Origin: Chryseobacterium shigense
GTDB lineage: Bacteria > Bacteroidota > Bacteroidia > Flavobacteriales > Weeksellaceae
DNA: 64,000 bases
Assembly (NCBI RefSeq): GCF_014207845.1
Contig: NZ_JACHLC010000001.1
Location: 1,364,001 to 1,428,000, forward strand
Direction: 5' to 3'
Shown here piece by piece: positions 32,661 through 50,758 of this stretch (positions are counted from its first letter, which is position 1; every line of letters begins with the position of its first letter). The notes under the pieces are model-generated. The model did not search any database. It worked only from the letters and a program-made list of their open reading frames with translations, and had not been told where the DNA came from. The position numbers and the translations under genes were made by a program.

Positions 32661-34067
32661 TCAGTTATTATATAAAGCTATATATTTTTCGGCAGATTTC
32701 TCCCATGCAAAATCAAAATTCATGTTGGCATGAACAAGATCTTCCATCGCGCCTTTCTGATTATAAATTGCAAGTGCCCTGTTCATGGCATGAACGATGT
32801 CATCTACACCAGGATAGGTAAAATTCAGCCCGGCTCCTCCTGTTGAGATATCTTCCACTGTATCCCTGAGCCCTCCGGTATATCTTACCACAGGAACCGT
32901 TCCATATCTCATGGAATACATCTGATTCAGTCCGCAAGGTTCCACCCGTGACGGCATCAGCAGAAAATCTGCCGAAGCATAGATCTTATGGGAAAGGTAT
33001 TCTTTATACCCGAGATCCAGAGCAAAATTAGTATAGGTATATGCGTATTCCTTAAGTTTATTTTCGATATAGGAGTTTCCTGACCCCAGGATCATAATAT
33101 TCAGTGCTCCATAGCTCTGTTTAATACTTTTCCAGACTACATCGGGAAGGAAATCTGCACCTTTTTCGGTGGCAAATCTTCCTATAAAGGCAAAAAGAGG
33201 CAGTTCAGGCTTCAGGCCGTATTCTTTGCAAAGTTTTTCTTTATTTTTCTTTTTCTGTGCCAGGGCATTTTTTATATTAAAATTAAAATCCAGCATCGGG
33301 TCGGTTTCGGGATTCCATACTTCCGTATCAATTCCGTTGATAATTCCGTATGCTTTTCCGAATTCCTGACGTACCAGGCTTTCCAGACCGCGGAAGCTGA
33401 TAAAAAGTTCTTCCAGATACCCTTCTGAAACGGTTGTAAAAGCATTGGAACATTTAATCATGCTTGCCAGAGGGTTGATATAGCCATTCCAGTCCATGAA
33501 GCCCCATTTATAGGAATCGAAAGACGGCATATAATTGGCCATATTCCAGCTCATCATTCCCTGGTATTCTCCGTTATGGATGGTTCCTATTGTTTTTACG
33601 CCTTTTAAAAATTCAAATTCAGGGCAATGTTCAATCATAAAAGGGACCAGCCCGGTATGATAGTCGTGACAGTGCAGTACATCGGGACGGATTTCCATTG
33701 CACTCAACCAGTGAAGCACTCCATGCTGAAATGCGAGAAACTGGAAACTTTCATCCTGATATCCATAGGGATTTTCCCTGTCTAAAAGCCCGGGAATTTT
33801 AACCATATAAAGCTCAAATCCCAAAACATCCGTTTTCTCCTTCAACACCTGAACCTGAAGCATATTTGGTCCCTGATGGATAAAGCCGTCAAAAACGATA
33901 TCAAATTCATGGTCATGGACAAAAGGTTTATTGTACCACGGCATTACTACCTTGGCATCTATCCCTTTTATTTTATTCTGATATTTAGGCAGCGCTCCCA
34001 CAACGTCTGCAAGACCTCCTACTTTTGCTACCGGATAACATTCTGTACTAAGGTGATAAATTGTCAT
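32661..34067 (-). CDS. glgA: Glycogen synthase
   Basis: The 468-residue GT5 enzyme extends alpha-1,4-glucan from ADP-glucose. The N-terminal donor motif K15-V-G-G-L lies in AKVGGLADVVGALP. The C-terminal domain has AFIGRFATEKGADFLPDVV and the GT-B motif MPSRVEPCGLNQMYSMRYGT, which contains the catalytic glutamate. It lies 37 bases after the unknown gene at 34105-34650, probably in one transcript with glgB. Confidence 0.95.
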   Translation of the reverse strand: MTIYHLSTECYPVAKVGGLADVVGALPKYQNKIKGIDAKVVMPWYNKPFVHDHEFDIVFDGFIHQGPNMLQVQVLKEKTDVLGFELYMVKIPGLLDRENPYGYQDESFQFLAFQHGVLHWLSAMEIRPDVLHCHDYHTGLVPFMIEHCPEFEFLKGVKTIGTIHNGEYQGMMSWNMANYMPSFDSYKWGFMDWNGYINPLASMIKCSNAFTTVSEGYLEELFISFRGLESLVRQEFGKAYGIINGIDTEVWNPETDPMLDFNFNIKNALAQKKKNKEKLCKEYGLKPELPLFAFIGRFATEKGADFLPDVVWKSIKQSYGALNIMILGSGNSYIENKLKEYAYTYTNFALDLGYKEYLSHKIYASADFLLMPSRVEPCGLNQMYSMRYGTVPVVRYTGGLRDTVEDISTGGAGLNFTYPGVDDIVHAMNRALAIYNQKGAMEDLVHANMNFDFAWEKSAEKYIALYNN

Positions 34068-34104
34068 TTTTATTATTAAAATTTAATTATTAAAAAAACT
34101 TCTC

Positions 34105-34650
34105 TTAAAGAGTTGTTTTTATATTGGATTGTAATTCAAACAGATACCGCATTTCATCTTCAAAAAAATAATTTTTGATCATGATAGTAAAATCTTCTGA
34201 TTGAAAGGTTATTAATCCATATTTTTCAAGGTGATCAATATCAAAAGTAGATGATTCATCGAATGCAAAAGTTTCCACCTTCCATGATAAGAAACCTTCT
34301 TCTGAAGCATTTTCATTATCTACCCATTCTGTATTTTGCAATTGTTCATTTGGGTAAAATCTGAAACGAAAAGAATCCTGAATTATCAGTTTTTTAATAA
34401 GACTGCGTGTGTCATCTTCTCTTAACATGCAAATCATTTCACGCACCTTGTCATCTGAAAAAGCGAGTTTATGCTTTTCCACTTTATACTCATAAAAATA
34501 CAAATCATCATTTAATTTTGCATCTGATAAAGGTGGATAAATTTCTGCCCTGGAAAAATCCCGCAATGTCTCTTCATCGAAATCGGTTCTTATAATATAC
34601 TTCCTAAGATCTTTATACTCTTTTCCTAAAACATCTAAAACCTGAATCAT
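34105..34650 (-). CDS. Unknown protein encoded inside the glycogen operon
   Basis: The 181-residue protein has no motif I recognise. It is acidic and soluble, with alternating charged helices and a strand-rich C-terminal half (about 105-175, including FLSWKVETFAF and YGLITFQSEDFTIMIKNYF). Its ATG overlaps the glgB stop by four bases (ATGA), and glgA follows 37 bases later, so it is translated with the pathway. This coupling argues for a real gene and perhaps a role linked to glycogen, though an accidental insertion is possible. Composition looks similar to its neighbours. Confidence 0.75.
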   Translation of the reverse strand: MIQVLDVLGKEYKDLRKYIIRTDFDEETLRDFSRAEIYPPLSDAKLNDDLYFYEYKVEKHKLAFSDDKVREMICMLREDDTRSLIKKLIIQDSFRFRFYPNEQLQNTEWVDNENASEEGFLSWKVETFAFDESSTFDIDHLEKYGLITFQSEDFTIMIKNYFFEDEMRYLFELQSNIKTTL

Positions 34651-36596
34651 TTTTTATGCTGTTTTATTCTCTGCAATTTATATTTTTTATCTTTTCTCTG
34701 TCTTAAAATAATTCCTGCCAACGGAGGAAGCTTGACAGTGATAGACTTTGGATACCTTCTCCATTCTTCGTGCTTTTCATTTAAAATATCAGCATCTGTA
34801 CCACTTCCGCTATATTTCTGATCGTCTGAATTAAAAATAACCTCCCAATGGGTTCCTGTATTCACGCCAATAGTATATTCCAGAACCTGTGGAGTCAGAT
34901 TGAGAACCACCATTAGAACATCATCTCTTCTTTTGCCTTTTCTAAGGTAAACGTATACGGAATTTTCCAAATCATCTGCTTCCACCCATTCAAATCCATT
35001 CTTATTAAACTGATTTTCATAAAAAGCAGGTTCGTTTCTATATAAATGGTTAAGATCTTTTACCAGTGTCTGCATTCCCTTGTGAACCGGGTACTGCAGC
35101 AGATGCCAGTCGAGACTGCGGGTAAAATTCCATTCACCGGTCTGTGCAAATTCATCACCCATAAAAAGAAGTTTGGCTCCCGGATGAGTATACATATAAA
35201 CATATAATGCTCTTAGATTGGCAAACTTCTGCCATTCATCACCCGGCATTTTATAAATCAGGCTTGCTTTTCCGTGTACTACTTCATCATGTGACAGCGG
35301 CATCATATAATTTTCATTATACATATATACGGATGCGAAAGTAATTTTATGGTGGTGATATTTCCTGTTTATCGGATCTTCTTTAAAATAATCCAGCGTA
35401 TCATGCATCCATCCCATCATCCATTTCATTCCAAAACCTACTCCCCCATCATGGACAGGTTTTGTAAGCATAGGGAAATCCGAGCTCTCCTCAGCTATCG
35501 TCATAATGCTGTCACCAAATTCTTTGTAAACCGCTGTATTGAACTCCTGCAGGAAAGCTTTGGCTTCAAGGTTTACATTTCCGCCTTCTATATTAGGTTC
35601 CCATTCGCCTTCATTCCTGGAATAGTCAAGATGCAGCATTGATGTAACCGCATCTACACGAAGCCCGTCTGCATGATAACGCTCCAGCCAGAACATGGCA
35701 TTGGAAATCAGAAAAGACTTTACTTCATTTCTGCCATAATTGAAAATATAGGATTTCCAATCGGGATGAAAGCCTTTCCGCGGATCTTCGTGCTCATATA
35801 AATAAGAACCATCAAAACGGTGAAGCCCGTTGGCATCTCCCGGAAAATGGGATGGCACCCAATCCAGAATAACCCCGATATTGTGTTTATGCAGTTCATC
35901 AATCAGGAACATAAGATCCTGAGGTGACCCGAAACGTGACGTGGCCGCATAAAATCCTGTAATCTGGTACCCCCAGCTCGGATCGTACGGATATTCCATC
36001 ACCGGCATAAATTCTACATGGGTAAAACCCATTTCCTTTACATAAGGAACCAGCTTCTCTGCAATATCACGGTAATTCAAGTATTTATCCGGAGCATTGC
36101 CTTCCCTTACCCAGGAACCTAAATGAAGTTCGTAAACGGATATCGGAGCATCCAGGGTATTTTTTTTCCAGCGGTTCTCCATCCATTCCTTATCGCTCCA
36201 TTCGTACCAGGTAGTGGAAACCAATGAAGCGGCCTGCAGATTTTGTTCCCAGCTTAAGGCATAAGGATCACTTTTCTCCAGAATTTCTCCTCTGGCAGTT
36301 TCCACTGCATATTTATATAATGTACCCCAGGTAAGCCCGGTAATAAATCCTTCCCAGATACCGGAACCGTCCCATCTCGGAAACAGAATATGATCTTTAT
36401 GATTCCAGTTGTTAAAATTTCCAATCACGGAAACTTTTTTTGCATTGGGAGCCCACACTGAAAAGTAGACACCTTTTACCCCATCTTTTTCAGCAGAATG
36501 TGCTCCAAATTTCCCATACAGCTTATAATGCCTGCCTTCTTTAAAAAGGTAAACATCATGATCATTAAACAGTGTATAGGTTTTAACAGAATTCAT
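34647..36596 (-). CDS. glgB: 1,4-alpha-glucan branching enzyme
   Basis: From the ATG at 36596 the protein is 649 residues; the longer frame uses a TTG at 36647. A CBM48-type N-terminal domain (about 20-110, with VYFSVWAPNAKKVSVIGNFNNW) precedes the GH13 barrel. Catalytic regions are DGLRVDAVTSMLHLDY (nucleophile Asp), IAEESSDFP (acid/base Glu) and MPLSHDEVVHGK (stabilising Asp). It forms alpha-1,6 branches in glycogen. It heads a leftward operon with an unknown gene and glgA, divergent from the esterase at 36809. Confidence 0.95.
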   Translation of the reverse strand: MNSVKTYTLFNDHDVYLFKEGRHYKLYGKFGAHSAEKDGVKGVYFSVWAPNAKKVSVIGNFNNWNHKDHILFPRWDGSGIWEGFITGLTWGTLYKYAVETARGEILEKSDPYALSWEQNLQAASLVSTTWYEWSDKEWMENRWKKNTLDAPISVYELHLGSWVREGNAPDKYLNYRDIAEKLVPYVKEMGFTHVEFMPVMEYPYDPSWGYQITGFYAATSRFGSPQDLMFLIDELHKHNIGVILDWVPSHFPGDANGLHRFDGSYLYEHEDPRKGFHPDWKSYIFNYGRNEVKSFLISNAMFWLERYHADGLRVDAVTSMLHLDYSRNEGEWEPNIEGGNVNLEAKAFLQEFNTAVYKEFGDSIMTIAEESSDFPMLTKPVHDGGVGFGMKWMMGWMHDTLDYFKEDPINRKYHHHKITFASVYMYNENYMMPLSHDEVVHGKASLIYKMPGDEWQKFANLRALYVYMYTHPGAKLLFMGDEFAQTGEWNFTRSLDWHLLQYPVHKGMQTLVKDLNHLYRNEPAFYENQFNKNGFEWVEADDLENSVYVYLRKGKRRDDVLMVVLNLTPQVLEYTIGVNTGTHWEVIFNSDDQKYSGSGTDADILNEKHEEWRRYPKSITVKLPPLAGIILRQRKDKKYKLQRIKQHKK

Positions 36597-36808
36597 CAAG
36601 ATATCGTTGTACTTTATTTTTTTTGAAACTACGAAAATTCTATGCAATAACCATTAATTATTATTCAAATAATTATTATGTTAATTACTTCCATTTTCCA
36701 CACGTTTATCAAATATATTATTTTTTATATTCATTTTTTTATGATTTTAAAACAATCTTTTTTATAAATTTAGCTTCCAATTTATATTTAAATTATATTT
36801 AAACACAC

Positions 36809-37933
36809 ATGATGAGGTTTGAACTTTATACTGAAGAAAGCGACGACAGGACGGTGTACATCACCGGAAATTTTAACAACTGGAACCCAAAGGATTACAA
36901 TTACCAGCTTAAACAGCTGAATCCGAACAATTATTTCATAGAGATTGATGACAAGATTCTTCCTGACATTGTGGAATACAAATTCACAAAAGGAGGCTGG
37001 GAAAATGTGGAGCTCGATAAGTACGGGAATATCACTCCGAACAGGAAAGCTGAAAAAGCTAAAGGAAAAACATCTGATAGCGTAGAGAAATGGAGGCTTA
37101 ACTGGGGACCCTTTAAAAAGGAATTTTTTCCACTTGCAGAAGTGATTTCGGATGAATTCTATATTCCTCAGCTTGACCGCTACCGGAAAGTTTGGGCTGT
37201 GCTGCCCTATGATTATTATGTATCCGAGAAAAGCTATCCTGTGCTCTACCTGCAGGATGCCCAAAATCTTTTCAATGAAGGAAGCGGGTACGGAAACTGG
37301 GAAATTGATAAAAAACTGTCTATCCTTGCCGAATACGGCCGCGGTGATGTGATTATCATAGCTATAGAACACGGCAGTGAAGAACGTATCAAGGAATACA
37401 TCTTTGATAATGATAATGTGGCGAACGGTTCGGAGGGAAAAAAATACATCCGCTTCATTACAGATACTTTGAAACCCTTTGTAGATGAGCATTACCGTAC
37501 CAAAAAAGACCGTGACAATACAGGAATCGGCGGCAGCTCTCTGGGCGCACTGATTAGTATTTACAGCGGATTCCTTTATCCGGAGGTCTATTCCAAACTG
37601 CTGATTTTCTCCCCTTCACTTTGGGTGGAGCCTAACAATAACTTCCCGATGATGAACTTCAGGATTCCGTTTAAAACCAAAATATATCTGTACGGCGGTG
37701 GTCAGGAGGGTTCCAAAATGGTAAAAAGAATCCATGTTTTTGAAGAATATTTAAAACGCTGGGAAAAGAAGAATCTTTTTGACTTTGAATTCAGAACGAG
37801 CATTAACCCTGAAGGAACCCACAGTGAATTTTACTGGTCGCAGGAATTCCCAAGAGCTATTGAATGGCTGTTCTATAATAACACAGAAAACCCGGTAGAA
37901 GTAAAACCGCAACAACAAAGCGTTAAAAATTAA
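36809..37933 (+). CDS. Esterase with N-terminal glycogen-binding-like module
   Basis: The 374-residue protein starts with an immunoglobulin-like module (about residues 1-85) whose VYITGNFNNWNPKD matches CBM48/AMPK glycogen-binding domains. An esterase D-like alpha/beta hydrolase domain follows. It has YPVLYLQDAQNLF, the nucleophile elbow GGSSLG, and a late histidine in NPEGTHSEFYW. No signal peptide is seen, so it is cytoplasmic. It is divergent from glgB and 4 bases before the aminopeptidase gene. A substrate tied to glycogen is an inference from the module and context. Confidence 0.82.
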   Translation: MMRFELYTEESDDRTVYITGNFNNWNPKDYNYQLKQLNPNNYFIEIDDKILPDIVEYKFTKGGWENVELDKYGNITPNRKAEKAKGKTSDSVEKWRLNWGPFKKEFFPLAEVISDEFYIPQLDRYRKVWAVLPYDYYVSEKSYPVLYLQDAQNLFNEGSGYGNWEIDKKLSILAEYGRGDVIIIAIEHGSEERIKEYIFDNDNVANGSEGKKYIRFITDTLKPFVDEHYRTKKDRDNTGIGGSSLGALISIYSGFLYPEVYSKLLIFSPSLWVEPNNNFPMMNFRIPFKTKIYLYGGGQEGSKMVKRIHVFEEYLKRWEKKNLFDFEFRTSINPEGTHSEFYWSQEFPRAIEWLFYNNTENPVEVKPQQQSVKN

Positions 37934-37937
37934 GTTT

Positions 37938-39353
37938 ATGAAATTAATCAATAAAAAAAATAAAAAATATACCCAGATCTTTCAACTTTTCACTGAAGAA
38001 GAATGGACCAAATCCGGTAAAAATTACAATAAAAATGTTTCTTCTTTTTTCTCCGGAAAGAAATTTGAGGTTTTCATTCATACCGATGAAGAAAGTATCA
38101 CTTACCTGATCGGTTTGGGAAAATCAACGCTGCAGAATTTCGAGGTTCAGCAGGTCGCCGTTAAATTTGCTCAGACCCAGAAAGAAAAAATTCAGGCCGC
38201 TCCCACTTTGCTTTTAGCAGATTTCCTGAAAGAAAAACAGTTTGAAGAATTTGTAAAAGGATTACTTTTGGGAACATACAGCTATCCTTTTGATAAGAAA
38301 CATGCTTTCTGGAATCCTAAGTTCGAGATTCATTTTGAAAATTTAAGTCAGAAAAAACTGGATACAATCAGTTCTAAAGCCGAGGCGTTGGCTAACGGGC
38401 AAACAACCTGCCAGGAATGGCTGAATAAACCTGCCAATCTTAAAAAACCTGATACTTTAGGTCTGTTTCTGAAAAATCTGGCAAAAAAATACGAATTAAA
38501 ATACACAGCATTCAACAGAAAAAAATGTGAAGAGCTTGGTTTGGGCGCTTATCTGTCGGTTAATCAGGGAAGTGCTTATGATGCTGCTTTTACCATTATA
38601 GAATATAAAACCACCGTTAAAAATGCCAAGACATTTGGCCTGGTAGGAAAATGTGTGCTCTTTGATACGGGAGGGATTTCACTGAAGAATCCGGACAATA
38701 TGCATTATATGAAATCTGATATGGGCGGTGCCACAGCAGTTATCGGAGCTCTGATCTATGCTGCGGAAATGCAACTTCCAGTCAATATTATTGCTGTACT
38801 TCCTGTTACAGATAATGCAATTTCCGAAAAGGCTTTCCTTCCAAGTGATGTTATCACAGCCTACAACGGAAAAACAATTGAAGTCCTTAATACCGATGCT
38901 GAAGGCAGGATGATCCTTGCCGATGGACTTTCTTATCTGGCAAAAAATTACAAAACAGATTTCCTGATTGATCTTGCCACTCTTACCGGAAGTTCTGTAA
39001 GAATGTTTGGGGACACCTGTGGGGCCATGTTCTCCAATAATGATGAACTGAAAAATCTTCTGATAAAAACAGGAGATGTTACCAATCAGAGAGTTTGGAA
39101 TCTTCCGTTATGGGATGTGTGGAAAGATGATATTCAATCTGATGTGGCGGATCTTAAAAATATCTCAATGAAACCTATCGGAGATTGTATTGTAGCCGCT
39201 AAATTTCTGGAACAGTTTATAGAAAACCATCCTAAATGGGCTCATCTTGATATTGCTGGTGTGGCATTTGGAAGTACAGGATATTCAAAAGAAAAGGCAG
39301 CAACCGGCTTCGGTGTACAATTATTGGCTGATTTAATTGAAAATTATCACTAA
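37938..39353 (+). CDS. Leucyl aminopeptidase family protein (M17)
   Basis: The 471-residue protein has a divergent N-terminal part and the conserved M17 catalytic domain. Metal and catalytic signatures are GKCVLFDTGGISLKNPDNMHYMKSDMGG (two-metal site) and NTDAEGRMILADGLSYL (the M17 family signature). It probably works as a hexameric Zn/Mn aminopeptidase in the cytoplasm, freeing N-terminal residues. It begins 4 bases after the esterase stop, so the two are cotranscribed. The ATP-grasp run starts 140 bases downstream behind its own promoter. Confidence 0.9.
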   Translation: MKLINKKNKKYTQIFQLFTEEEWTKSGKNYNKNVSSFFSGKKFEVFIHTDEESITYLIGLGKSTLQNFEVQQVAVKFAQTQKEKIQAAPTLLLADFLKEKQFEEFVKGLLLGTYSYPFDKKHAFWNPKFEIHFENLSQKKLDTISSKAEALANGQTTCQEWLNKPANLKKPDTLGLFLKNLAKKYELKYTAFNRKKCEELGLGAYLSVNQGSAYDAAFTIIEYKTTVKNAKTFGLVGKCVLFDTGGISLKNPDNMHYMKSDMGGATAVIGALIYAAEMQLPVNIIAVLPVTDNAISEKAFLPSDVITAYNGKTIEVLNTDAEGRMILADGLSYLAKNYKTDFLIDLATLTGSSVRMFGDTCGAMFSNNDELKNLLIKTGDVTNQRVWNLPLWDVWKDDIQSDVADLKNISMKPIGDCIVAAKFLEQFIENHPKWAHLDIAGVAFGSTGYSKEKAATGFGVQLLADLIENYH

Positions 39354-39493: not shown

Positions 39494-40705
39494 ATGGAGG
39501 AGAAAACTATAGTATGTATTTCGTGCTATTACAAAGGCTATGATTTCATGGATGAAATGAAGAAGCTTGGTAATAAAATCATCTTGGTAACATCAGAGAG
39601 CCTTAAAGAAAAAGACTGGCCATGGCATGCTATTGATGAGGTATTTTATATGGCTGAAGTAAAGCCGTCTGTCTGGAACCTGGAACATCTGATCCAGGGC
39701 TTTTCACACCTGATGAAAACCAGAAAAGTAGATGCCGTAGTGGCACTCGATGATTATGACGTAGAAAAAGCAGCGCTAATCAGGGAAACATTCCGTATTC
39801 CCGGGATGGGACAGACCACGCACCGTTATTTCAGAGACAAGCTGGCCATGCGCCAGAAAGCGAAAGATTCAGGAATCAGTGTTCCGGAATTCACCGCTGT
39901 TTTTAATAACGATGAGGTTAACAGCTTTGTAGAGGCAGTTCCGGCTCCCTGGGTATTAAAACCGCGTTCAGAAGCATCTGCATCAGGAATTAAAAAGTTT
40001 TCTTCAAAAGATGAACTTTGGAATGAACTGAACGCGCTTGGTGAAGAACGTCACCTCTTCCTGCTGGAAAGCTTTAAGCCGGGAGATGTATATCATGTGG
40101 ACAGTCTGACGTTTAACAAAGAGATCGTATTTACATCTGCCTCTAAATATCTTGCTCCACCTATGCAGGTTTCTCATGAAGGCGGTGTATTCAGATCAAA
40201 AACTCTCGGAAGATATTCTGAAGAGTTCAAAGCCCTTGAAGAAGTAAATGCAAAAGTTCTTTCCAGTTTCGGATTGATAAACGGAGCTACCCATACTGAA
40301 TTTATCCGTGGAAAAGCTGACGGAAAATGGTATTTCCTTGAAACATCTTCCAGAGTTGGCGGTGCGCATATTCCGGATCTTGTTGAAGCTTCCAGTAATA
40401 TCAATATCTGGCGGGAATGGGCAAAAATTGAAGATGCCCTTCTTCGTGGAAAAGATTATCAGGCTTCCAAACCTACAGGCTATTATTCAGGGCTGATTGT
40501 TGCTTTAATCAAAGATAAAGATCCCGATTACAGTGTCTTTAACAGTGAAGAAGTCGTAAAATTTCTTCCTATTGATCACCATGTAGGAATTGTTTACAAA
40601 TCCAGCGATCCGGAAACTATACAGCAAAGGTTAGACAGCGCCGCGGAAAAGATTCAGGCGGAAATGCTGAATATCCTGCCTCCCAAAAGCAAACTGACAA
40701 GTTAA
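39494..40705 (+). CDS. ATP-grasp ligase A
   Basis: The 403-residue protein has the ATP-grasp layout: a pre-ATP-grasp domain (about 1-110), a lysine-bearing subdomain (PWVLKPRSEASASGIKKFSS) and a C-terminal metal-binding part (TEFI...WYFLETSSRVGGAHIPDLVE). These match carbamoyl-phosphate-synthase-like and dipeptide-ligase ATP-grasp enzymes, which join a carboxylate to an amine through an acyl phosphate. Substrates are unknown. It is the first gene of a run with an esterase, a second ATP-grasp enzyme, a GCS2-type ligase and an amidotransferase, with gaps of 30-57 bases. Confidence 0.87.
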   Translation: MEEKTIVCISCYYKGYDFMDEMKKLGNKIILVTSESLKEKDWPWHAIDEVFYMAEVKPSVWNLEHLIQGFSHLMKTRKVDAVVALDDYDVEKAALIRETFRIPGMGQTTHRYFRDKLAMRQKAKDSGISVPEFTAVFNNDEVNSFVEAVPAPWVLKPRSEASASGIKKFSSKDELWNELNALGEERHLFLLESFKPGDVYHVDSLTFNKEIVFTSASKYLAPPMQVSHEGGVFRSKTLGRYSEEFKALEEVNAKVLSSFGLINGATHTEFIRGKADGKWYFLETSSRVGGAHIPDLVEASSNINIWREWAKIEDALLRGKDYQASKPTGYYSGLIVALIKDKDPDYSVFNSEEVVKFLPIDHHVGIVYKSSDPETIQQRLDSAAEKIQAEMLNILPPKSKLTS

Positions 40706-40735
40706 AACGCAAAATATAACAAAAGAAATTTATCA

Positions 40736-41449
40736 ATGCCGCATATTGAACACACAGATTATTATTCAAACATATTAGGAACAAGTCTTAAAGTAGAAGT
40801 TACCGGACATTACGGATACCCCATCATTATGTTTCCAACTTCACAGGGACAATACACTCAAAATCATGATTTCCATCTTAACGGAAGCATCAACTGGTTT
40901 ATTGAGCAGGGAAAAGTAAAGCTTTATAATATCCAGACCATTGACGGCTGGAGCTTTTATGATGAAAAGATTTCTCCGCAACAAAGAATAAAAAATTATG
41001 AAATGTATGTACAATTTCTGATCCAGGAATTTGTCCCGTACATTCAGAAGATTCATAAAACGCACCGTGTAGCAGTTGCCGGGGCAAGCTTCGGAGGTTA
41101 TCATGCCGCTAATTTTGCCTTCCGGTTTCCGGATGTAGTTTCACATCTGTTCTGTCTTTCAGGGGCATTCAGCATCAGAAACTTTATGGACGGATATTCG
41201 GATGAGCTTGTTTATTTTAACTGTCCCAGGGAATTTGTAAAAAATGATGAAGCCTGGAAATACAAGCACATGCATATTGTACTGAGTACTTCCGATCAGG
41301 ACATCTGTAAAGATAAAAACCTGGAAATGGCAGAAATATTAAGTTCAAAAGGTATAGACTTCTGGTATGATGAAAGAAAATGGATCAATCACGACTGGCC
41401 TTTATGGAGAATGGTATTTCCAACATTTATAGGAGCATTTTTTTCCTGA
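40736..41449 (+). CDS. Esterase-like alpha/beta hydrolase within the ligase run
   Basis: The 237-residue protein fits the esterase D-like alpha/beta hydrolase fold. It shows the nucleophile elbow GASFGGYHAANFAFRFPD, an aspartate-bearing STSDQDIC segment and the C-terminal histidine of WINHDWPLW. It lacks the N-terminal module of the esterase at 36809. There is no signal peptide. Its place between two ATP-grasp genes suggests it hydrolyses or transfers an ester or amide intermediate of the same pathway; that role is inferred. Confidence 0.83.
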   Translation: MPHIEHTDYYSNILGTSLKVEVTGHYGYPIIMFPTSQGQYTQNHDFHLNGSINWFIEQGKVKLYNIQTIDGWSFYDEKISPQQRIKNYEMYVQFLIQEFVPYIQKIHKTHRVAVAGASFGGYHAANFAFRFPDVVSHLFCLSGAFSIRNFMDGYSDELVYFNCPREFVKNDEAWKYKHMHIVLSTSDQDICKDKNLEMAEILSSKGIDFWYDERKWINHDWPLWRMVFPTFIGAFFS

Positions 41450-41506
41450 AAAAACAATACATTTAAGAAAATAAAATAATAACACACCAATTTAAAAACA
41501 GAAATT

Positions 41507-42460
41507 ATGGCAAAAAAAGTGGGAATTCTATTCGGTATGGAAGATACATTTCCTTGGGCGTTTATCGATAAAGTGAATGAACTGGGAGGCGGAGAGATCG
41601 TTGCTGAAGCAGTTAATATCGACAAACTGGAACAGGGAGCAGATTACGGCTATGCAGTAATTATCGACAGAATTTCGCAGGATGTTCCTTTCTACAGAGC
41701 GTATTTAAAAAATGCAGCACTTAACGGAACTTATGTAATCAATAACCCATTCTGGTGGAGTGCTGATGAAAAATTCTTTAACAATGCACTGATGACAAAA
41801 CTGGGAATTCCACTTCCTAAAACAGTGCTTCTTCCTTCGCACGAAAGACCTACAGATACAACGGAAACATCATTCAGAAACCTGAAATTCCCTCACGACT
41901 GGGAGTATATTTTCAATTATGTAGGATTTCCTGCTTATATGAAACCTCATGACGGAGGCGGATGGAAAAGTGTGTACAGAGTGGAGAGCCCGGAAGATCT
42001 ATGGGATAAACTAAGCGAAACAGAACAGCTTGTAATGATGGTACAGGAAGAAATTGTATTTGATGACTATTACAGAGTTTATTGCCTGGGTAAGAAATAT
42101 GTTCATATTATGCCTTACGAACCCCGTAATCCACATCACCTGAGATATGCTACCACGCACCAGACTCAGGGTGAAGATCTTGAAAAATTATTAAAAACAA
42201 TCCACGACTATACCATTAAAATGAATGAAGCTCTCGGCTATGATTTCAACACTGTTGAATTTGCCATCAGAGACGGAATTCCATATGCTATAGATTTCTG
42301 TAACCCGGCTCCGGATGCTGACAGAAATTCCGTAGGCGAAGAAAACTTTGCATGGATTGTAGAGCACGCAGCCAAACTTGCCATTGAAAAGGCAAAAGAA
42401 TATGTTCCCGGAAAACCTAATATCTCCTGGGGTACTTTTGTAAAAGACTCTGTAAAATAA
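41507..42460 (+). CDS. ATP-grasp ligase B
   Basis: The 317-residue protein has ATP-grasp motifs: PAYMKPHDGGGWKSVYRV (nucleotide lysine), VQEEIVFDDYYRVYCLGKKYVHIMPYEP (central beta sheet) and NTVEFAIRDGIPYAIDFCNPAPD (metal-binding Glu and Asn). It is RimK/glutathione-synthase-like in overall order but shorter than ligase A. It would form an amide or peptide bond with ATP. It follows the esterase by 57 bases and precedes the GCS2-type ligase by 31 bases. Confidence 0.87.
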   Translation: MAKKVGILFGMEDTFPWAFIDKVNELGGGEIVAEAVNIDKLEQGADYGYAVIIDRISQDVPFYRAYLKNAALNGTYVINNPFWWSADEKFFNNALMTKLGIPLPKTVLLPSHERPTDTTETSFRNLKFPHDWEYIFNYVGFPAYMKPHDGGGWKSVYRVESPEDLWDKLSETEQLVMMVQEEIVFDDYYRVYCLGKKYVHIMPYEPRNPHHLRYATTHQTQGEDLEKLLKTIHDYTIKMNEALGYDFNTVEFAIRDGIPYAIDFCNPAPDADRNSVGEENFAWIVEHAAKLAIEKAKEYVPGKPNISWGTFVKDSVK

Positions 42461-42491
42461 TCATTAAAAAATAAAAAAACACGAAAAGAAA

Positions 42492-43610
42492 ATGCATCAG
42501 TTTACTATAGGAATCGAGGAAGAATATCAGATCATTGATGTTGAGAGCAGAGACTTAATATCTCATGTTTCCAAAATAATTGAAGGCGGAAAAGCAGTTT
42601 TAAGTGAAAATTTAAAACACGAAATGCACGAATCCATGATTGAAATGGAAACCGGCATCTGCCAGAATATCAAGGAGGCCAGAACAGAACTGACCAACCT
42701 GAGAAGACATCTGATCAACACAGCACATGAGCAGGGGCTTAGAGTTTCCGGAGGCGGAACCCACCCTTTTTCAAACTGGGAACATAACACCATTACCAAC
42801 GGTGAACGGTACAACAAAATTGTAGATGATATGGGAGATGTTGCCCGTGGAAATTTAATTTTCGGGCTCCATGTTCATATCGGAATTCCAAACCGTGAAG
42901 AAGGCGTAAGAATCCAGAATGTGATGCGTTATTTCCTTCCACACGTCTATGCACTTTCTACAAACTCTCCTTTCTGGATAGGAAGAAGTACAGGCTTTAA
43001 ATCTTACAGACAGGAAATTTTTGTAAAGTTCCCAAGAACAGGGATTCCAAGCTATTTTAATTCTCTTGCTGAATTCGACAGCTATGTGGATCTTCTTGTA
43101 AAAACAGGGACTATCGACAATGCCAAGAAAATCTGGTGGGACTTAAGAGTACATCCATTCTACCCTACCATTGAATTCCGAATTTGCGACATGCCATTGA
43201 GAATAGAAGAAACCGTCTGTCTGGCAGCCATTATGCAAAGTCTGGTAGCAAAAATCTATAAACTTCATCAGCAAAACTTAAGTTTCAGAAGCTACAGAAG
43301 ATTATTGCTCAACGAAAACAAATGGAGAGCATCCAAAAGTGGTATTGACGCTCACCTGATTGATTTTGGAAAAGAAGAATCCGTTCCTTATCCTCATCTT
43401 TTGAAAGAGCTTCTGGAATTCATTGATGATGTGGTAGATGAACTGGACTGCAGAAAAGAAGTTGAGTATGCCTGGACCATTCTGGAAAACGGAACAGGAG
43501 CCGACAGACAGCTTAAAGTGTTCAATGAGACCGGCGATCTTACCAAAGTGGTAGATTATATGATCTCTGAAACAGAGTTTGGCATAACACATGGCGAAAC
43601 CGCTTCATAA
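42492..43610 (+). CDS. Carboxylate-amine ligase, GCS2/YbdK family
   Basis: The 372-residue protein opens with FTIGIEEEYQIID, the family signature. Other segments are SGGGTHPFSNWEH and HVHIGIPNREEGVRIQNVMRYFLPH, and TIEFRICDMPLRIEE near residue 235. These glutamine-synthetase-fold enzymes form gamma-glutamyl or related amide bonds (compare gamma-glutamylcysteine synthetase type 2). The actual substrate pair is unknown; E. coli YbdK has only weak glutamate-cysteine ligase activity. It is the fourth gene of the run, 35 bases before the amidotransferase. Confidence 0.9.
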   Translation: MHQFTIGIEEEYQIIDVESRDLISHVSKIIEGGKAVLSENLKHEMHESMIEMETGICQNIKEARTELTNLRRHLINTAHEQGLRVSGGGTHPFSNWEHNTITNGERYNKIVDDMGDVARGNLIFGLHVHIGIPNREEGVRIQNVMRYFLPHVYALSTNSPFWIGRSTGFKSYRQEIFVKFPRTGIPSYFNSLAEFDSYVDLLVKTGTIDNAKKIWWDLRVHPFYPTIEFRICDMPLRIEETVCLAAIMQSLVAKIYKLHQQNLSFRSYRRLLLNENKWRASKSGIDAHLIDFGKEESVPYPHLLKELLEFIDDVVDELDCRKEVEYAWTILENGTGADRQLKVFNETGDLTKVVDYMISETEFGITHGETAS

Positions 43611-43645
43611 TATTTTTGGTAACTTTGCAAAAAATATGAAGTAGT

Positions 43646-44479
43646 ATGAGAGATATTCGGATGGCATTGATAGACATGAACAATAATCATGTGAATCAAG
43701 GCTTTAGAAATATTAAAGAGATTTCAGAAGCATTCCAGCAGAATTCTGAAGAAAACGTGACCATCGAAACATTTGATGTAAGGTTTAAAAATGAAATGCC
43801 GGACATTAATGATTTTGACATCTTTATTTCTTCAGGAGGGCCGGGAAATCCACACAGAGAAGGCCTGGAATGGGAAGATAAGTATGCAAGCTTTTTGGAT
43901 GCTGTTTTAGAGCATAATAAATATAGTGAAGATAAAAAATACCTCTTCCTGATCTGCCATTCATTTCAACTGGCAAGCATTCACTGGAAACTGGGTAATA
44001 TCTGCAAAAGAAAATCCTATTCTTTTGGGGTAATGCCTGTTCACAAAACAGAGGAAGGCAAACAGGAATTTTTGTTCAAAAATCTTCAGGACCCTTTCTA
44101 TGCTGTAGACTCCAGAGCTTATCAGTTCATTGAACCGGATATGGACCGCTTTGATGAATTGGGTATGAAAATCATGGCTATTGAGAAATTCAGGCCACAT
44201 ATTAATCTGGAAAGAGCCGTCATGGCTGTACGTTTCTCAGATGAAATATTCGGGACACAGTTCCATCCGGAAGCTGATCCTAAAGGCATGATTGAAAATC
44301 TGAAAGACGAAAAAAACAAAGCAGCAATGATCGAGAATTTCGGAATGGAAAAATATCTTGAAACAATGGACAGAATAGATGATGAAGACAAGATTATCCT
44401 TACCAGAAACCAGATCCTGCCAAGATTCCTTCAGTCTGCAAAAAAAAACATTTTGAAGGAAAGTGAAGTTTTAGCTTAA
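43646..44479 (+). CDS. Class I glutamine amidotransferase
   Basis: The 277-residue protein shows the class I GATase fold: the oxyanion strand SSGGPGNPH at 62-70, the nucleophile C104 in FLICHSFQLA and H207/E209 in GTQFHPEADP. It lacks a fused synthetase domain. A C-terminal helical extension (about 215-277) is unusual for the bare domain. It could supply ammonia to a partner ligase or act as a gamma-glutamyl hydrolase. It ends the five-gene run; a repeat and terminator follow. Confidence 0.86.
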   Translation: MRDIRMALIDMNNNHVNQGFRNIKEISEAFQQNSEENVTIETFDVRFKNEMPDINDFDIFISSGGPGNPHREGLEWEDKYASFLDAVLEHNKYSEDKKYLFLICHSFQLASIHWKLGNICKRKSYSFGVMPVHKTEEGKQEFLFKNLQDPFYAVDSRAYQFIEPDMDRFDELGMKIMAIEKFRPHINLERAVMAVRFSDEIFGTQFHPEADPKGMIENLKDEKNKAAMIENFGMEKYLETMDRIDDEDKIILTRNQILPRFLQSAKKNILKESEVLA

Positions 44480-44501
44480 ACTTTTTATAAGATGAAATAA
44501 T

Positions 44502-44581
44502 ATGCTTCGACTCCGCTCAGCATGACATTTCTAATAGGAATTGTCTTTTTAGCGTTGTCATGCTGAGCGGAGTCGAAGCAT
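44502..44581. repeat. Perfect 26-base inverted repeat after the ligase run
   Basis: The left arm (44502-44527, starting ATGCTTCGACTCC) and the right arm (44556-44581) are exact complements around a 28-base spacer. This word, with TGCTGAGCGGAGTCGAAGCA inside, is, to my recollection, a recurrent intergenic palindrome in flavobacterial genomes. It separates the amidotransferase gene from the next gene and may act as a transcription end structure. Confidence 0.75.
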
Positions 44582-44620
44582 TATTAATAAATAAGACATT
44601 CTTTTAATCTTAAAGAAACT

Positions 44621-44644
44621 AAATCGGGCATAACAGCTCGATTT
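44621..44644 (+). terminator. Terminator or attenuator before the ATP-grasp-like gene
   Basis: The arms AAATCGGGC and GCTCGATTT (one G-U pair) surround a 6-base loop and are followed by T residues. It ends 28 bases before the start codon at 44673. Confidence 0.6.
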
Positions 44645-44672
44645 TTTAAAATCAAAACCACAGACAAAAAAT

Positions 44673-45857
44673 ATGATCCCAAAATACAGAAAACAATTCA
44701 ACCAGGAGTTTTCACAGGAAAAATACGAACAGTTTAAAGAAATTCTTACCCAAAAAGGAGGTATTGCACCTGCATTCAGAATTTCAGAAAGCCCTCTTTT
44801 TCTCACTAATGAATTCAAAGACAAGCTTCTTGATGCCAGTGAAAGCATTATCGACCAGATTAAAGGACTTCCTGCTGAAGTACTTGATAAAGCCGTTCCG
44901 GACAACTGCAGGGTTCCCAATGATACACTTCAGCCTCACTTTTTTACCATTGATTTCGGGATCTGCCGAAGCGAAAACGGGCAAATTGAGCCACAACTGA
45001 TAGAGCTGCAGGCTTTTCCTTCATTATATGCCTTTCAAAAGGTGTTTGAGGATACATTTTGTGAAGTTTACCCTTTCCTCTCTGAGATTAAAAATAAAAT
45101 GCCTCATTCGGAATTCGAAAATCATTTAAAGAAACTGATCATTGGCGATGAAAATCCCGAAAATGTTATCCTGCTTGAAATTTTTCCTGAAAAACAGAAA
45201 ACAGCAATTGATTTTGCATTAACTGAGCAATTACTAGGAATAAAAACAGTCTGCCTGACGAAAGTAAAAAAAGAAGGCAAAAAACTGTTCTACGAGAATG
45301 ACGGAAAACCGGTGGAAATTAAAAGGATCTACAACCGTGTTATTTTTGATGAGTTGGACAGAATCCCTGATTTAAAAGCCGGATTTGATTTCCGTGAAGA
45401 TATTGATGTAAAATGGATCACCCATCCTAACTGGTTCTTTAAAATATCAAAATTTCTTCTTCCGATCCTGAAACATCAGTTTGTTCCGAAAAGTTATTTC
45501 CTGCACGAGTTTCCCGAACATGAGCAGCTTGAAAATTTTGTATTGAAACCTCTGTTTTCTTTCGCTGGAAGCGGAGTGAACTTAAATCCTACAAAAGAAA
45601 TCACAGAAGCCATCGAGGATAAAGAAAACTATATTTTACAGAGAAAAGTAACGTATGAGCCTGTTTTTGAAGATATCAACGGTGAATTTTCAAAAGCAGA
45701 AATCCGGTTGCTGTATGTTTGGCATGAAAATGACGAACGCCCTATTCTCCTGGAAAATCTGGGAAGAATGACAAAAGCCGCAATGGTAAATGTGGATTTC
45801 AACAAGAAAGACGCAATCTGGATTGGGAGTTCTAATGCTTTTTTCGGAGAAGAATAA
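44673..45857 (+). CDS. Divergent ATP-grasp-like protein
   Basis: The 394-residue protein has no close family I can name. The C-terminal part looks ATP-grasp-like: NFVLKPLFSFAGSGVNLNPT resembles the nucleotide-binding lysine and glycine loop, and SKAEIRLLYVWHENDERPILLENLGR resembles the metal-binding end. The N-terminal 230 residues are less clear but include FFTIDFGICRSENGQIEPQL. A glutathionylspermidine-synthase-like, permuted ATP-grasp is one option. It lies on the same strand as the ligase run but behind a terminator, and faces cphA tail to tail. Confidence 0.65.
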   Translation: MIPKYRKQFNQEFSQEKYEQFKEILTQKGGIAPAFRISESPLFLTNEFKDKLLDASESIIDQIKGLPAEVLDKAVPDNCRVPNDTLQPHFFTIDFGICRSENGQIEPQLIELQAFPSLYAFQKVFEDTFCEVYPFLSEIKNKMPHSEFENHLKKLIIGDENPENVILLEIFPEKQKTAIDFALTEQLLGIKTVCLTKVKKEGKKLFYENDGKPVEIKRIYNRVIFDELDRIPDLKAGFDFREDIDVKWITHPNWFFKISKFLLPILKHQFVPKSYFLHEFPEHEQLENFVLKPLFSFAGSGVNLNPTKEITEAIEDKENYILQRKVTYEPVFEDINGEFSKAEIRLLYVWHENDERPILLENLGRMTKAAMVNVDFNKKDAIWIGSSNAFFGEE

Positions 45858-46104: not shown

Positions 46105-48732
46105 TTATTTTTTATCATCTTCGAGTAATTCTCTTGCCTGATATTCCTGTACAAGATCAATTGCATTGGAAATAACATCACTTAAAGCTGTAATGAAAGT
46201 ACCTTCTTCAGCCATTCCCATCGCGTGCTTTAAAGCTTCAATTTCTTTCGGGATAATCTCATAGCTCACATCTCTTCCTGAAGACTGCATCCCTTCAATG
46301 ATTAATCCGTTGATCTCTTCTTCTGTTCTTCCGCGGAGATGTTTTTCATTTCTGATGATGATATGATCAAACATTCTTCCTGCGATCTTTCCGCATTCCT
46401 TAATATCACTGTCACGTCTGTCGCCTACTCCTGAAATAATACCTATTTTCTTAGTAGATTCTACATTTTTAAGATAATCTTCGATTGCTTCATAGCCGGA
46501 AGGATTATGTGCAAAATCAATCAATACCTTAAAATTCTTGAATTTAAAAATATTCAGTCTTCCCGGTGTAAGCTGTGCACTTGGAATAAAGGTTCTTAAA
46601 GAATTGGAAATATCTTCAATCCCGAAGCCATAAAGATAACTTGCCAAACTCGCTGCCAGAACGTTTTCAATCATGAATCTGGCTTTCCCTTCCATTGTAA
46701 TAGGGAAATCTTTGGCCTTTCCGATTCTGATCTTCCAGTCGCCTTTTTTAATGGTTACAAAACCTTCTTCGTAAATACAGGTAATTCTTCCTTCTTTGGC
46801 AAATTTTACAATATGCGGATTATTTTCATCCATACTGAAAATAGCGACTTTGCTGTCAAGATCATTAATGATCTTCATGGAATATTCGTTATCGGCATTC
46901 AGGACGCTCCAGCCATTTTTCTTTACACTGTCCAGAACAACTCTTTTTACTTTCGTAAGGTCTTTTAAATTGTGGATATCATTCAATCCCAAATGATCTT
47001 CCTCAATATTAGTCAGAACACCAATGTCGCATTGGGAATATCCTAAACCTGAACGCAGGATTCCACCTCTGGCTGTTTCCAGAACGGCAAATTCTACCGT
47101 AGGGTCTTTCAGGACGAATTCAGCAGAAAGAGGTCCCGTGGTATCTCCTTTTGAAAGCATTGTATTTTGGATATAAATACCGTCAGAAGTAGTAAATCCT
47201 ACCCTGTAACCGTTACTTTTTACAATATGGGAGATCAGTCTCGTTGTGGTTGTTTTTCCATTGGTTCCCGTTACTGCAATAATTGGAATTGTAAACGGTT
47301 TTCCCGGAGGATAGAGCATATCTACTACCGGAGCTGCAACGTTTCTCGGAAGCCCTTCACTTGGGGCCAAATGCATTCTGAACCCGGGTGCAGCGTTTAC
47401 TTCTATAATGGCAGCACCGCTTTCTTTAAGAGGCTGTGTTAAGTTTTCTGCCATGATATCAATTCCGCAGACATCCAGTCCTATAATTTTGGAAACTCTT
47501 TCCGCCATAGTGATATTTTCAGGATGTACCATATCGGTAACATCTATAGAGGTACCTCCTGTAGAAAGATTGGCGGTAGACTTCAAATAAACGACCTCCC
47601 CTTTTTGCGGAACGGTTTCAAGGGTATACTGAAGTTTTTCGAGGAGTTCCATAGTATCTTTATCCACTTCTATTTCAGTAAGGACATTTTCATGGCCATA
47701 TCCTCTTCTCGGATCTTTATTTTCTTTATCTATCAGTTCCTGGATATTCAGCTCACCGTCCCCAACAACATGTGCAGGGACTCTTCTTGCAGCAGCGACC
47801 ATCTTATTATCAATCACCAAAACCCTGAAATCATATCCTGTAATGTACTTTTCTACAATTACTTTTCTTGAATATTTCTGAGCATGTTCCAGGCCTATTT
47901 TTGCAGCTTCCCAATCGTTTACATTGATCGATGAGCCTTTTCCGTGATTTCCGTCCAGTGGTTTTAAAACAATTGGATACCCTATTTTTCTTATAACACT
48001 GTTCAAATCTTCTTCATCCACCACCAGATCTCCAACAGGAACCGGAATAGCGGCATCATGAAGCATTTTTTTAGTCAGTTCTTTATTACATGCAATATCT
48101 ACTGCAATAGAGCTTGTTTTTCCGGTGATGGTAGCCTGAAAACGCTGTTGGTTAACTCCATAACCAAGCTGTACCAAAGAGTTTGTTCCTAATCTGATCC
48201 ACGGAATTCTTCTGGAAACAGCTTCTTCCACAATACTTCCCGTAGAAGGGCCCAGACGAACACGCTCTCTAATTTCCTTTAATTTATGTATGCAGGCATT
48301 AATATCATATTCTTTATTGTCGATTAAAGCCTGGGCTATATTTACTGCCTGTTCAGCTGCATAAATCCCTGCGTTTTCTTCAATATAATTAAATACCACA
48401 TTATATACTCCCGGTGATCTTGTTTCGCGGGTTCTTCCGAAGCCTACATCCATACCCGCCAACGTCTGTATTTCCAGTGCAATATGTTCAATAACGTGCC
48501 CCATCCACGTCCCGGTCTCTATTCTGTGGAAAAAACCTCCTTCTTCTCCTTCTGAACATCTGTGAGTGTACAGAGATGGGATCAGCTTTTCAATTCTTTC
48601 CCTGAAACCGTCAATTTTGTTTGTAGGATAATTTTCCATTTCTTCAAGGTCCAATCTCATCTGTATCAGCTTCTTTCTCCTAATACTCCAGATATTTGGG
48701 CCGCGTAACGCCTGTATCTTCTCAATTTTCAT
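46105..48732 (-). CDS. cphA: Cyanophycin synthetase
   Basis: The 875-residue protein has the full three-part layout. The N-terminal domain (about 1-160) opens IQALRGPNIWS. The ATP-grasp domain (about 215-475) has YPIVLKPLDGNHGKGSSI. The C-terminal Mur-ligase-like domain begins with the P-loop GTNGKTTTTRLI and has FAHNPSGYEAIEDYL. The ATP-grasp part adds aspartate to the polymer backbone and the Mur-like part adds arginine to each side chain, giving a cytoplasmic nitrogen store. A -7-like TATCTTTG lies at 48778-48785. The gene is divergent from cyanophycinase. Confidence 0.95.
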   Translation of the reverse strand: MKIEKIQALRGPNIWSIRRKKLIQMRLDLEEMENYPTNKIDGFRERIEKLIPSLYTHRCSEGEEGGFFHRIETGTWMGHVIEHIALEIQTLAGMDVGFGRTRETRSPGVYNVVFNYIEENAGIYAAEQAVNIAQALIDNKEYDINACIHKLKEIRERVRLGPSTGSIVEEAVSRRIPWIRLGTNSLVQLGYGVNQQRFQATITGKTSSIAVDIACNKELTKKMLHDAAIPVPVGDLVVDEEDLNSVIRKIGYPIVLKPLDGNHGKGSSINVNDWEAAKIGLEHAQKYSRKVIVEKYITGYDFRVLVIDNKMVAAARRVPAHVVGDGELNIQELIDKENKDPRRGYGHENVLTEIEVDKDTMELLEKLQYTLETVPQKGEVVYLKSTANLSTGGTSIDVTDMVHPENITMAERVSKIIGLDVCGIDIMAENLTQPLKESGAAIIEVNAAPGFRMHLAPSEGLPRNVAAPVVDMLYPPGKPFTIPIIAVTGTNGKTTTTRLISHIVKSNGYRVGFTTSDGIYIQNTMLSKGDTTGPLSAEFVLKDPTVEFAVLETARGGILRSGLGYSQCDIGVLTNIEEDHLGLNDIHNLKDLTKVKRVVLDSVKKNGWSVLNADNEYSMKIINDLDSKVAIFSMDENNPHIVKFAKEGRITCIYEEGFVTIKKGDWKIRIGKAKDFPITMEGKARFMIENVLAASLASYLYGFGIEDISNSLRTFIPSAQLTPGRLNIFKFKNFKVLIDFAHNPSGYEAIEDYLKNVESTKKIGIISGVGDRRDSDIKECGKIAGRMFDHIIIRNEKHLRGRTEEEINGLIIEGMQSSGRDVSYEIIPKEIEALKHAMGMAEEGTFITALSDVISNAIDLVQEYQARELLEDDKK

Positions 48733-48916: not shown

Positions 48917-48924
48917 TAAATTTG
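48917..48924 (+). promoter_or_regulatory. -7 box of cyanophycinase, nearly leaderless
   Basis: TAAATTTG ends only 6 bases before the ATG at 48931. A TTTC lies 20 bases upstream (48893-48896). If used, the transcript starts at or next to the start codon. Confidence 0.55.
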
Positions 48925-48930
48925 CACACT

Positions 48931-49821
48931 ATGATGAAACCTATTGGAAAATTAATTATTATCGGAGGAGCTGTAAACAAAGGAAGCTTTGCAGAAACCG
49001 ATTTCGACCAGAATATTGAAAAAAACCTTAACTTTTTTGAAAGAGGAATCCTGAGAAAGATCATTAATGAATCAAAACTTAAGGAAAATTCGGTCATCGA
49101 AATTATAACTACAGCCTCTCAGATCCCACAAATTGTAGGCACAGAATACAAAAAAGCTTTTGAATTTCTTGGTGCTAAAAATGTAAATATCCTTGATATC
49201 CATAACCGTGAAGAAGCTAATTCGGATGCTATTGTTGCGAGAGCCAGTGCTGCAGATGTCGTGATGTTCACAGGTGGAGATCAGCTTAGGCTTACTTCTA
49301 TTCTTGGAGGAACAAGATTTCATGATACCATTTTATTGAAGTATCAGGAACAGGATTTCATTTATTCAGGAACTTCCGCAGGTGCAGCCGCAGCTTCTGA
49401 GAATATGATCTACCAGGGAAGCAGCTCTGAATCTCTTTTAAAAGGTGAAATTAAAACAACACAAGGACTGGGGTTGATAGATAATGTGATTATTGATACG
49501 CATTTCGTACAGCGTGGCAGAATCGGACGTCTTTTCCAGGCTGTAGTCAATAATCCGAGAACACTGGGAATAGGTCTGGGTGAAGACACAGGTCTTTTTA
49601 TCCATAATGATACCATGACGGCTGTAGGTTCCGGCCTTGTAATCCTGGTAGACGGAAGATTTATTAAAGATACCAACCTTACGAACATCAACTTAGGGGA
49701 ACCTATTTCAATTGATAATCTTACGGTACACGTAATGTCTATGAATGATCATTACGATCTTGCCACAAAGAAGCTTACAATAGAGAATTCTCAGTTTAAT
49801 CCGATACCGCAGGATAAATAG
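48931..49821 (+). CDS. cphB: Cyanophycinase
   Basis: I start at the ATG at 48931 (296 residues) because the upstream TTG at 48922 overlaps the -7 box. The serine-peptidase-like fold shows GKLIIIGGAVNKGSF, the region VVMFTGGDQLRL, the nucleophile serine in YSGTSAGAAAASENM and the histidine of IDTHFVQRGRIGRLF. The enzyme cleaves cyanophycin to beta-Asp-Arg dipeptides in the cytoplasm. It is divergent from cphA and 94 bases before the isoaspartyl peptidase gene, so polymer breakdown is encoded as one unit. Confidence 0.94.
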   Translation: MMKPIGKLIIIGGAVNKGSFAETDFDQNIEKNLNFFERGILRKIINESKLKENSVIEIITTASQIPQIVGTEYKKAFEFLGAKNVNILDIHNREEANSDAIVARASAADVVMFTGGDQLRLTSILGGTRFHDTILLKYQEQDFIYSGTSAGAAAASENMIYQGSSSESLLKGEIKTTQGLGLIDNVIIDTHFVQRGRIGRLFQAVVNNPRTLGIGLGEDTGLFIHNDTMTAVGSGLVILVDGRFIKDTNLTNINLGEPISIDNLTVHVMSMNDHYDLATKKLTIENSQFNPIPQDK

Positions 49822-49915: not shown

Positions 49916-50758
49916 ATGAAAATAATAATCCACGGTGGTTTTTTCTCTGAAAGCGATCAAAGCCACGAAGTGAAGACAGCGAAACAAAATTCTTTAAAAC
50001 ATATAGTACAAAAGGCTTTTGAATACCTTCAAACCCATTCAGCTTTTGATACGGCAGCTTATGCTGTTTCTCTTTTGGAAGATGATCCATTGTACAATGC
50101 AGGTATCGGTTCCCAAATACAAAGTGACGGTGTGATCCGCATGAGTGCAGCTATTATGGACGGAGAAACACAGAAATTAAGCGGTGTTATCAATCTGCAG
50201 GACGTAAAGAACCCGATTTTTGTGGCAAAAGAGCTTATAAAAGAGGATGACAGAGTTCTTGGCGGAAAAGGTGCCAAAACGTATGCATCCGAACACGGTT
50301 TCGAGAATTTTTCCACTGAAATTCCTCAGAGAAGAAGTGAATATGAAGCAAAACTTCATAACGGAGGTAAAGGAACTGTAGGCTGTGTAGCTCTTGATAA
50401 AGATGGAAAACTGGCCGTAGCTACATCTACTGGCGGAAAAGGCTTTGAAATCCCCGGAAGAATTTCAGATTCGGCAACAGTGGCAGGAAATTATGCCAAT
50501 TCAGTTTGTGCCGTGAGCTGTACAGGCGTAGGAGAAGATATTGTAAGCAATGCCACAGCTGCAAAAATTGTAACGAGAACTACCGACGGAATGAGTCTTG
50601 AGCAGGCATTCAACAAGACATTTGAAGAGCTCAAGACCATAGATGGTTTTGCTGGAGCTATTGCCATTGACAGGGAAGGGAACGTTTATCATCAGGATTC
50701 TTATCCTACAATGGTCTTCGCCAGTTTTGATGGGAAAAATTTTCAGGTGTTTCAATAA
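49916..50758 (+). CDS. Isoaspartyl peptidase / plant-type asparaginase
   Basis: The 280-residue protein is an N-terminal nucleophile hydrolase made as an inactive precursor that cleaves itself before T154, in HNGGKGTVGCVALD. The early motif IIIHGGF and the late NATAAKIVTRTTDGMSLEQA region are typical of this family. It splits beta-aspartyl dipeptides, so it would finish cyanophycin use by releasing aspartate and arginine. It is shorter than E. coli IaaA (about 320 residues). It follows cphB on the same strand. Confidence 0.91.
   Translation: MKIIIHGGFFSESDQSHEVKTAKQNSLKHIVQKAFEYLQTHSAFDTAAYAVSLLEDDPLYNAGIGSQIQSDGVIRMSAAIMDGETQKLSGVINLQDVKNPIFVAKELIKEDDRVLGGKGAKTYASEHGFENFSTEIPQRRSEYEAKLHNGGKGTVGCVALDKDGKLAVATSTGGKGFEIPGRISDSATVAGNYANSVCAVSCTGVGEDIVSNATAAKIVTRTTDGMSLEQAFNKTFEELKTIDGFAGAIAIDREGNVYHQDSYPTMVFASFDGKNFQVFQ

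Follow-up and report, generated by a model that had tools for sequence, protein, structure and literature searches.

What is made by a run of amide-bond-forming enzymes encoded beside the cyanophycin genes of Chryseobacterium shigense, and which of its genes belong together? The window analysed here is a 64,000 nt stretch of this 4.15-Mb assembly (G000; contig NZ_JACHLC010000001.1, positions 1,364,001–1,428,000, forward strand), and gene coordinates given without a locus name refer to it. Five of its plus-strand genes, referred to as E, B, G, T and X, form one conserved unit: an alpha/beta-hydrolase esterase (E, 40736..41449), a RimK/Ddl-like ATP-grasp ligase (B, 41507..42460), a YbdK-family GCS2 carboxylate-amine ligase (G, 42492..43610), a class-I glutamine-amidotransferase-fold enzyme (T, 43646..44479) and a ligase of the glutathionylspermidine-synthetase/YgiC fold (X, 44673..45857). 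We consider it rather probable that the unit encodes a single pathway building and turning over a small non-ribosomal peptide-like amide, with three upstream genes (A, lap and gbE) as accessories.

Conservation of the gene order

B was sought in 296 genomes of the phylum and matched in 109 of them, in 78 of 139 genera, before marginal matches were dropped, and the 109 surrounding loci (L031–L139) were searched with the window proteins at cut-offs of 60 to 150 bits. E, at 60 bits, preceded B on a shared strand in all 50 loci that had it, G shared the strand of B in 56 of 57 loci and was downstream in those 56, whilst T and X, present in 46 and 47 loci respectively, were always on the strand of B and downstream. 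A set of named loci, the best 80 of 589 confirmed B matches and biased towards close relatives, carried the full order E-B-G-T-X on one strand in 69 cases, and because the order recurs in this way the arrangement is not a chance one. It was seen in Chryseobacterium, Elizabethkingia, Kaistella, Maribacter, Dyadobacter, Emticicia, Winogradskyella, Polaribacter and Cryomorpha, among other genera. Measured between alignment ends, gaps in the named loci were below 300 bases for T-X in 70 of 72, G-T in 67 of 71, B-G in 66 of 77 and E-B in 68 of 77. Among the exceptions to the order, five are contigs shorter than 6 kb (L164, L188, L189, L198 and L209; in L164 E was not seen even though the contig extends 3.7 kb upstream of B) and two, L201 and L207, are truncated by a contig end; L174 (a 9-kb contig) and L215 (a 6-kb contig) have no G between B and T, L215 also being without E, and in L184 and L192, both Runella, T and X were not found within 10 kb.

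The initial annotation had described A, E, B, G and T as five rightward genes separated by 30–57 bases, and all lie at that place and strand (A-E 30, E-B 57, B-G 31 and G-T 35 bases). It had also set X aside as merely following the five; X does stand after T, at a distance of 193 bases, but its conserved same-strand order makes it a core member of the unit. No further plus-strand open-reading frame of at least 20 amino acids lies in the T-X or lap-A gaps of the window, and no RNA element or riboswitch reached the Rfam gathering score between 36500 and 46200. Promoter (34 against 27.8) and terminator (10 against 7.9) scans were near chance and were not used. As a separate observation, G and X are separated by a gene for an M29-type metallopeptidase in 4 of the 109 loci (L031:6284-7303, L036, L042 and L082).

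For counts across the 296 genomes, marginal matches were dropped beforehand (B in G089, G in G198 and T in G127, with E-values of 7e-4 to 1e-3, and A in 20 of 86 genomes, at 4.8e-10 or weaker), whilst B matches of 30 to 42% identity in G007, G087, G160 and G287 were retained though probably paralogues. This left B in 108 genomes, X in 92, G in 103, T in 70 and A in 66. B and X were present together in 89 genomes, B alone in 19, X alone in 3 and neither in 185; B and G shared 91 genomes, and G and X 87. T occurred without B in one genome, which carries X, G and T, and G without B in 12, in nine of which the G match reaches no more than 33 to 41% identity.

Linkage is kept in most named loci, yet in genomes of the Kapabacteria/Ignavibacteria type (family f24) B, X and G lie apart while being present in the same genomes, so that the scatter anticipated as evidence against the unit is found in part. 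Where named to that level among the matches listed, the relatives of B from this family are an Ignavibacteria, Kapabacteria or Chlorobi bacterium (120 matches listed per search from 8000 candidates scored, used for names and not for counts). X adjoins an amidohydrolase gene (family n3, two members scanned) in 8 of 20 X regions, in families f24 and f27, and at L221:6957-9610 and L222:9050-11763 it overlaps an Amidohydro_3 gene by 4 bases, which suggests co-translation and a hydrolytic partner. G adjoins a serine-carboxypeptidase-family gene (n7, one member scanned) in 7 of 20 G regions.

The neighbours downstream of X invite a different explanation, that the unit modifies cyanophycin or beta-Asp-Arg dipeptides, as the initial annotation had proposed for cyanophycin-derived dipeptides. 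Facing X from the opposite strand is the cyanophycin synthetase gene cphA (46105..48732; TIGR02068, 1271.8 bits over 850), followed on the plus strand by the cyanophycinase gene cphB (48922..49821; TIGR02069, 226.5 over 126.6) and an Asparaginase_2/isoaspartyl-peptidase family gene (49916..50758; PF01112, 259.6 bits over 27), and of 16 Chryseobacterium-labelled loci 12 have cphA close to B, some of the remainder being short contigs. Co-occurrence leans the same way (odds ratio 2.0, Fisher p 0.08). However, full-length cphA above the cut-off is present in 33 of the 296 genomes and in only 17 of the 108 with B; the unit is thus kept without it in most B genomes (91 of 108), as a check of the gene order in its absence had been meant to establish. 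Adjacency within 10 kb is limited to 13 of the 80 named loci, from two genera (12 Chryseobacterium and one Halpernia). The unit therefore does not depend on or travel with cphA, and the link was rejected on both co-occurrence and adjacency: the cyanophycin genes look like a local coincidence, and their involvement is extremely improbable. On the other side of the unit, starch/glycogen-synthase-type and CBM48 alpha-amylase-family genes (32661-36647, minus strand) are also found upstream in many Chryseobacterium loci.

Enzyme families of the unit and its accessory genes

The families first assigned to A, E, B, G and T (two ATP-grasp proteins, an esterase, a GCS2/YbdK ligase and a class I amidotransferase) were borne out by family or profile matches and, for B, by a structure model. 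In the chemistry established for GCS2/YbdK and ATP-grasp enzymes, a carboxylate is activated to an acyl phosphate, from which the amide is formed. PADLOC returned no family for any of six proteins (six of six at an E-value of 1e-3), and a defence-system reading was rejected on this basis.

B gave no Pfam match at 1e-3 and scored 35.7 bits against the RimK family TIGR00768, under the curated cut-off of 143.4, so it is not a RimK by that measure; its structure model is clearly an ATP-grasp, which places it in that superfamily. The protein is 97% identical to its homologue in Chryseobacterium luteum. With a fold shared with RimK, LysX and Ddl, B might instead act with X to attach residues to a protein, ribosomal or otherwise, T, E and the peptidase serving as editors. 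RimK, LysX and TTL-type relatives do act on protein or carrier substrates, but the families of G and X act on small molecules or peptides, and within the unit the window shows no gene for a small carrier (carriers elsewhere, or under 90 amino acids in other loci, were not searched for); we regard such tagging as decidedly unlikely.

G matches PF04107 and belongs to the YbdK family, exceeding both curated cut-offs (NF010039, 535.5 bits over 371; TIGR02050, 303.2 over 176.4) and matching the E. coli YbdK structure 1r8g in the PDB at 1.3e-48. It differs from known YbdK in sitting within a conserved ligase operon. E is a PF00756 esterase (36.8 bits against a cut-off of 22) with a likely triad of Ser118, Asp189 and His219, whose alignment columns hold Ser in 23 of 25, Asp in 25 of 25 and His in 23 of 25 sequences; its 19 PDB sequence matches are mostly named as esterase, feruloyl/ferulic acid esterase or xylanase-linked esterase.

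A GCS2 ligase together with glutathione-synthetase-fold ligases might also suggest a glutathione-like low-molecular-weight thiol, in which G makes gamma-Glu-Cys, B or X completes the molecule and E is an S-formyl-thiol hydrolase, a role its PF00756 membership would allow. This genome has no glutathione synthetase above the cut-off, the sole match being a fragment of cphA below it. G, however, scores only 61.9 bits where the cut-off for cyanobacterial GshA is 249, S-formylglutathione hydrolase is the name of none of the 19 PDB matches of E, and a glutathione-type thiol is disfavoured because the genome already has BshC, of the bacillithiol synthase family, above its cut-off (G000:C3:193469-194965, 380.7 against 265.8 bits). 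We judge this reading highly unlikely.

T belongs to the class-I glutamine amidotransferase family (PF00117, 39.3 over 22.8), and the intact Cys-His-Glu set noted at the outset is invariant, with Cys104, His207 and Glu209 kept throughout an alignment of 23 sequences. PuuD-type hydrolases have such a set, which raises the alternative of amine utilisation as in E. coli Puu, with G gamma-glutamylating an amine, T hydrolysing the intermediate and X and B as side branches; amidoligases were reportedly linked with amine utilisation in a 2009 survey. T is nevertheless no close relative of PuuD (hhalign probability 15, too weak to identify it as that enzyme) and is missing in 39 of the 108 B genomes. 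Beyond the window families and one further ATP-grasp family (f7, below), no gene family occurs in more than 12 of the 109 loci, and the two commonest families, each scanned through a single member, are an ATP-binding cassette (ABC) ATPase and an extracytoplasmic function (ECF) sigma factor rather than oxidases or aminotransferases, the rarer ones being mostly unidentified. Amine utilisation is, in our assessment, quite improbable.

Returning to the peptide-like amide pathway, its proposed accessories lie directly upstream of E. The Pfam ATP-grasp matches of A (39494..40705, plus strand) are below cut-off, but its profile (A5) is related in sequence to solved L-amino acid ligases (4wd3, BL00235) and BacD, with PDB matches of 1.4e-23 to 4wd3 (profile positions 73-328), 3.6e-14 to 3vot and 1.1e-8 to BacD. 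Unlike these ligases, A is below every NCBIfam cut-off, and each of the 66 genomes with a strong match to A also has B. In part of the relatives gbE and lap go with A as a second module. gbE (36809..37933, plus strand) is a PF00756 esterase with an N-terminal extension (82.7 bits against a cut-off of 22, over residues 121-277 of 374), lap (37938..39353, plus strand) is an M17 leucyl-aminopeptidase-family peptidase (PF00883, 347 bits), and the two are 4 bases apart, directly upstream of A. The trio is together in the window, L206 and L120, and stands alone, away from the core, in L260 (genome G076), one of six A regions examined out of 20; in the other five neither lap nor gbE was matched beside A (L264 ends at a contig boundary). 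In 31 of the 80 named loci lap and B share one stretch of up to 21 kb. A second PF00756 esterase (one member scanned) is frequently encoded close to B but on the other strand, for example at L032:10895-11713; the best gbE-like match is opposite to B in 13 of the 109 unnamed and 25 of the 80 named loci.

X and the proposed pathway

X is the most informative part of the unit. Over its whole length it has the GspS/glutathione-synthetase fold, and it differs from Gss and the E. coli peptide-spermidine ligases YgiC and YjfC in lacking an amidase domain and in being encoded in an operon with GCS2 and ATP-grasp genes. Of 19 B genomes without X, 15 carry downstream of B a circularly permuted ATP-grasp, f7 (PF14403, one member scanned), and the remaining four have divergent B matches of 30 to 42% identity. 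This gene occupies the slot of X at L089:7610-8968 and in 14 further loci (L090-L103), and X and f7 share none of the 109 loci, a count of loci and not of whole X genomes. Direct comparison gave no homology between the two (hhalign probability 5), their relation depending on 3n6x, which matches both. Some genomes with f7 instead of X (family f18) have an Asparaginase_2-like gene beside A on the opposite strand (L091:3106-5374, L092 and L093).

The analysis shows a single conserved unit, its families and folds and the intact triad of T; the order of steps, the substrates, the product and the direction of T are inferred. G would activate the gamma-carboxylate of glutamate and join it to an amine or amino acid, B would add a further residue, and X would place an amine, perhaps a polyamine, on the carboxylate of the peptide as a cap. 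T may supply ammonia to a ligase or cleave gamma-glutamyl amides, E and the M17 peptidase may trim or recycle intermediates, gbE would likewise hydrolyse, and A, where present, could make an amino-acid amide precursor. Gene order and genome-wide co-occurrence indicate that the original idea, linked amidoligases forming a small amide- or gamma-glutamyl-linked molecule, is probably right.

Several results weigh against this pathway or its details. X scores under the Pfam GSP_synth cut-off (PF03738, 18.9 against 29.3 bits), and a profile comparison with Gss itself gave no match (hhalign probability 0.8). Of the Gss residues D318, E330 and N332, which we take to be those of the Mg site, the acidic pair is kept (Asp94 and Glu111 in 32 of 32 sequences), whilst the Asn of Gss and YgiC is Gln113 in all 32, turning the E-x-N motif of Gss, YgiC and YjfC into E-x-Q, and the Arg two residues ahead of the conserved Asp (R-x-D) is missing; because of these two changes the substrates of X may differ. 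Matches to the polyamine genes nspC (46.7 bits) and speA (86.8 bits) in this genome are both below cut-off. Among the 108 B genomes T is missing in 39, X in 19, G in 17 and A in 42, so the five-gene set is not obligatory, and Kapabacteria-type genomes have the unit genes scattered. Fisher P values for co-occurrence (1e-19 to 1e-52) ignore shared ancestry, so the patchiness inside family f2 is better evidence: of 27 genomes tallied, six carry all of B, X, G and T, a seventh lacks only B, and the remaining 20 carry none of the four.

A literature search found no named product of this gene set, which is weak evidence of absence as subscription journals were mostly outside its coverage. The fungal E-64 pathway combines the ATP-grasp Cp1B with an amide bond synthetase (PMC12568646); it differs in being fungal, and the accessible part of that source mentions neither GCS2 nor an amidotransferase. 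The amidoligase survey of Iyer et al. (2009) is said to describe linked ATP-grasp ligases, glutamine-synthetase-fold ligases and peptidases, and the mix of domains may already be known from it.

More specifically, and only tentatively, since we think it rather unlikely in this exact form, Bacteroidota and their Kapabacteria/Ignavibacteria relatives may use YbdK, RimK-like and YgiC-fold ligases to produce a gamma-glutamyl peptide not yet described, with an amine, probably a polyamine, as its cap; if true, this metabolite would resemble glutathionylspermidine but arise without glutathione, as this genome has a bacillithiol gene and no glutathione synthetase above the cut-off. With B, its core gene, present in over a third of the genomes sampled from the phylum (108 of 296), the multi-ligase set points to a common metabolite, one that would escape mining based on nonribosomal peptide synthetases (NRPS) or ribosomally synthesised and post-translationally modified peptides (RiPP). 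To our knowledge no role has been agreed upon for YbdK, an enzyme family of E. coli, and the unit would give it a testable pathway context.
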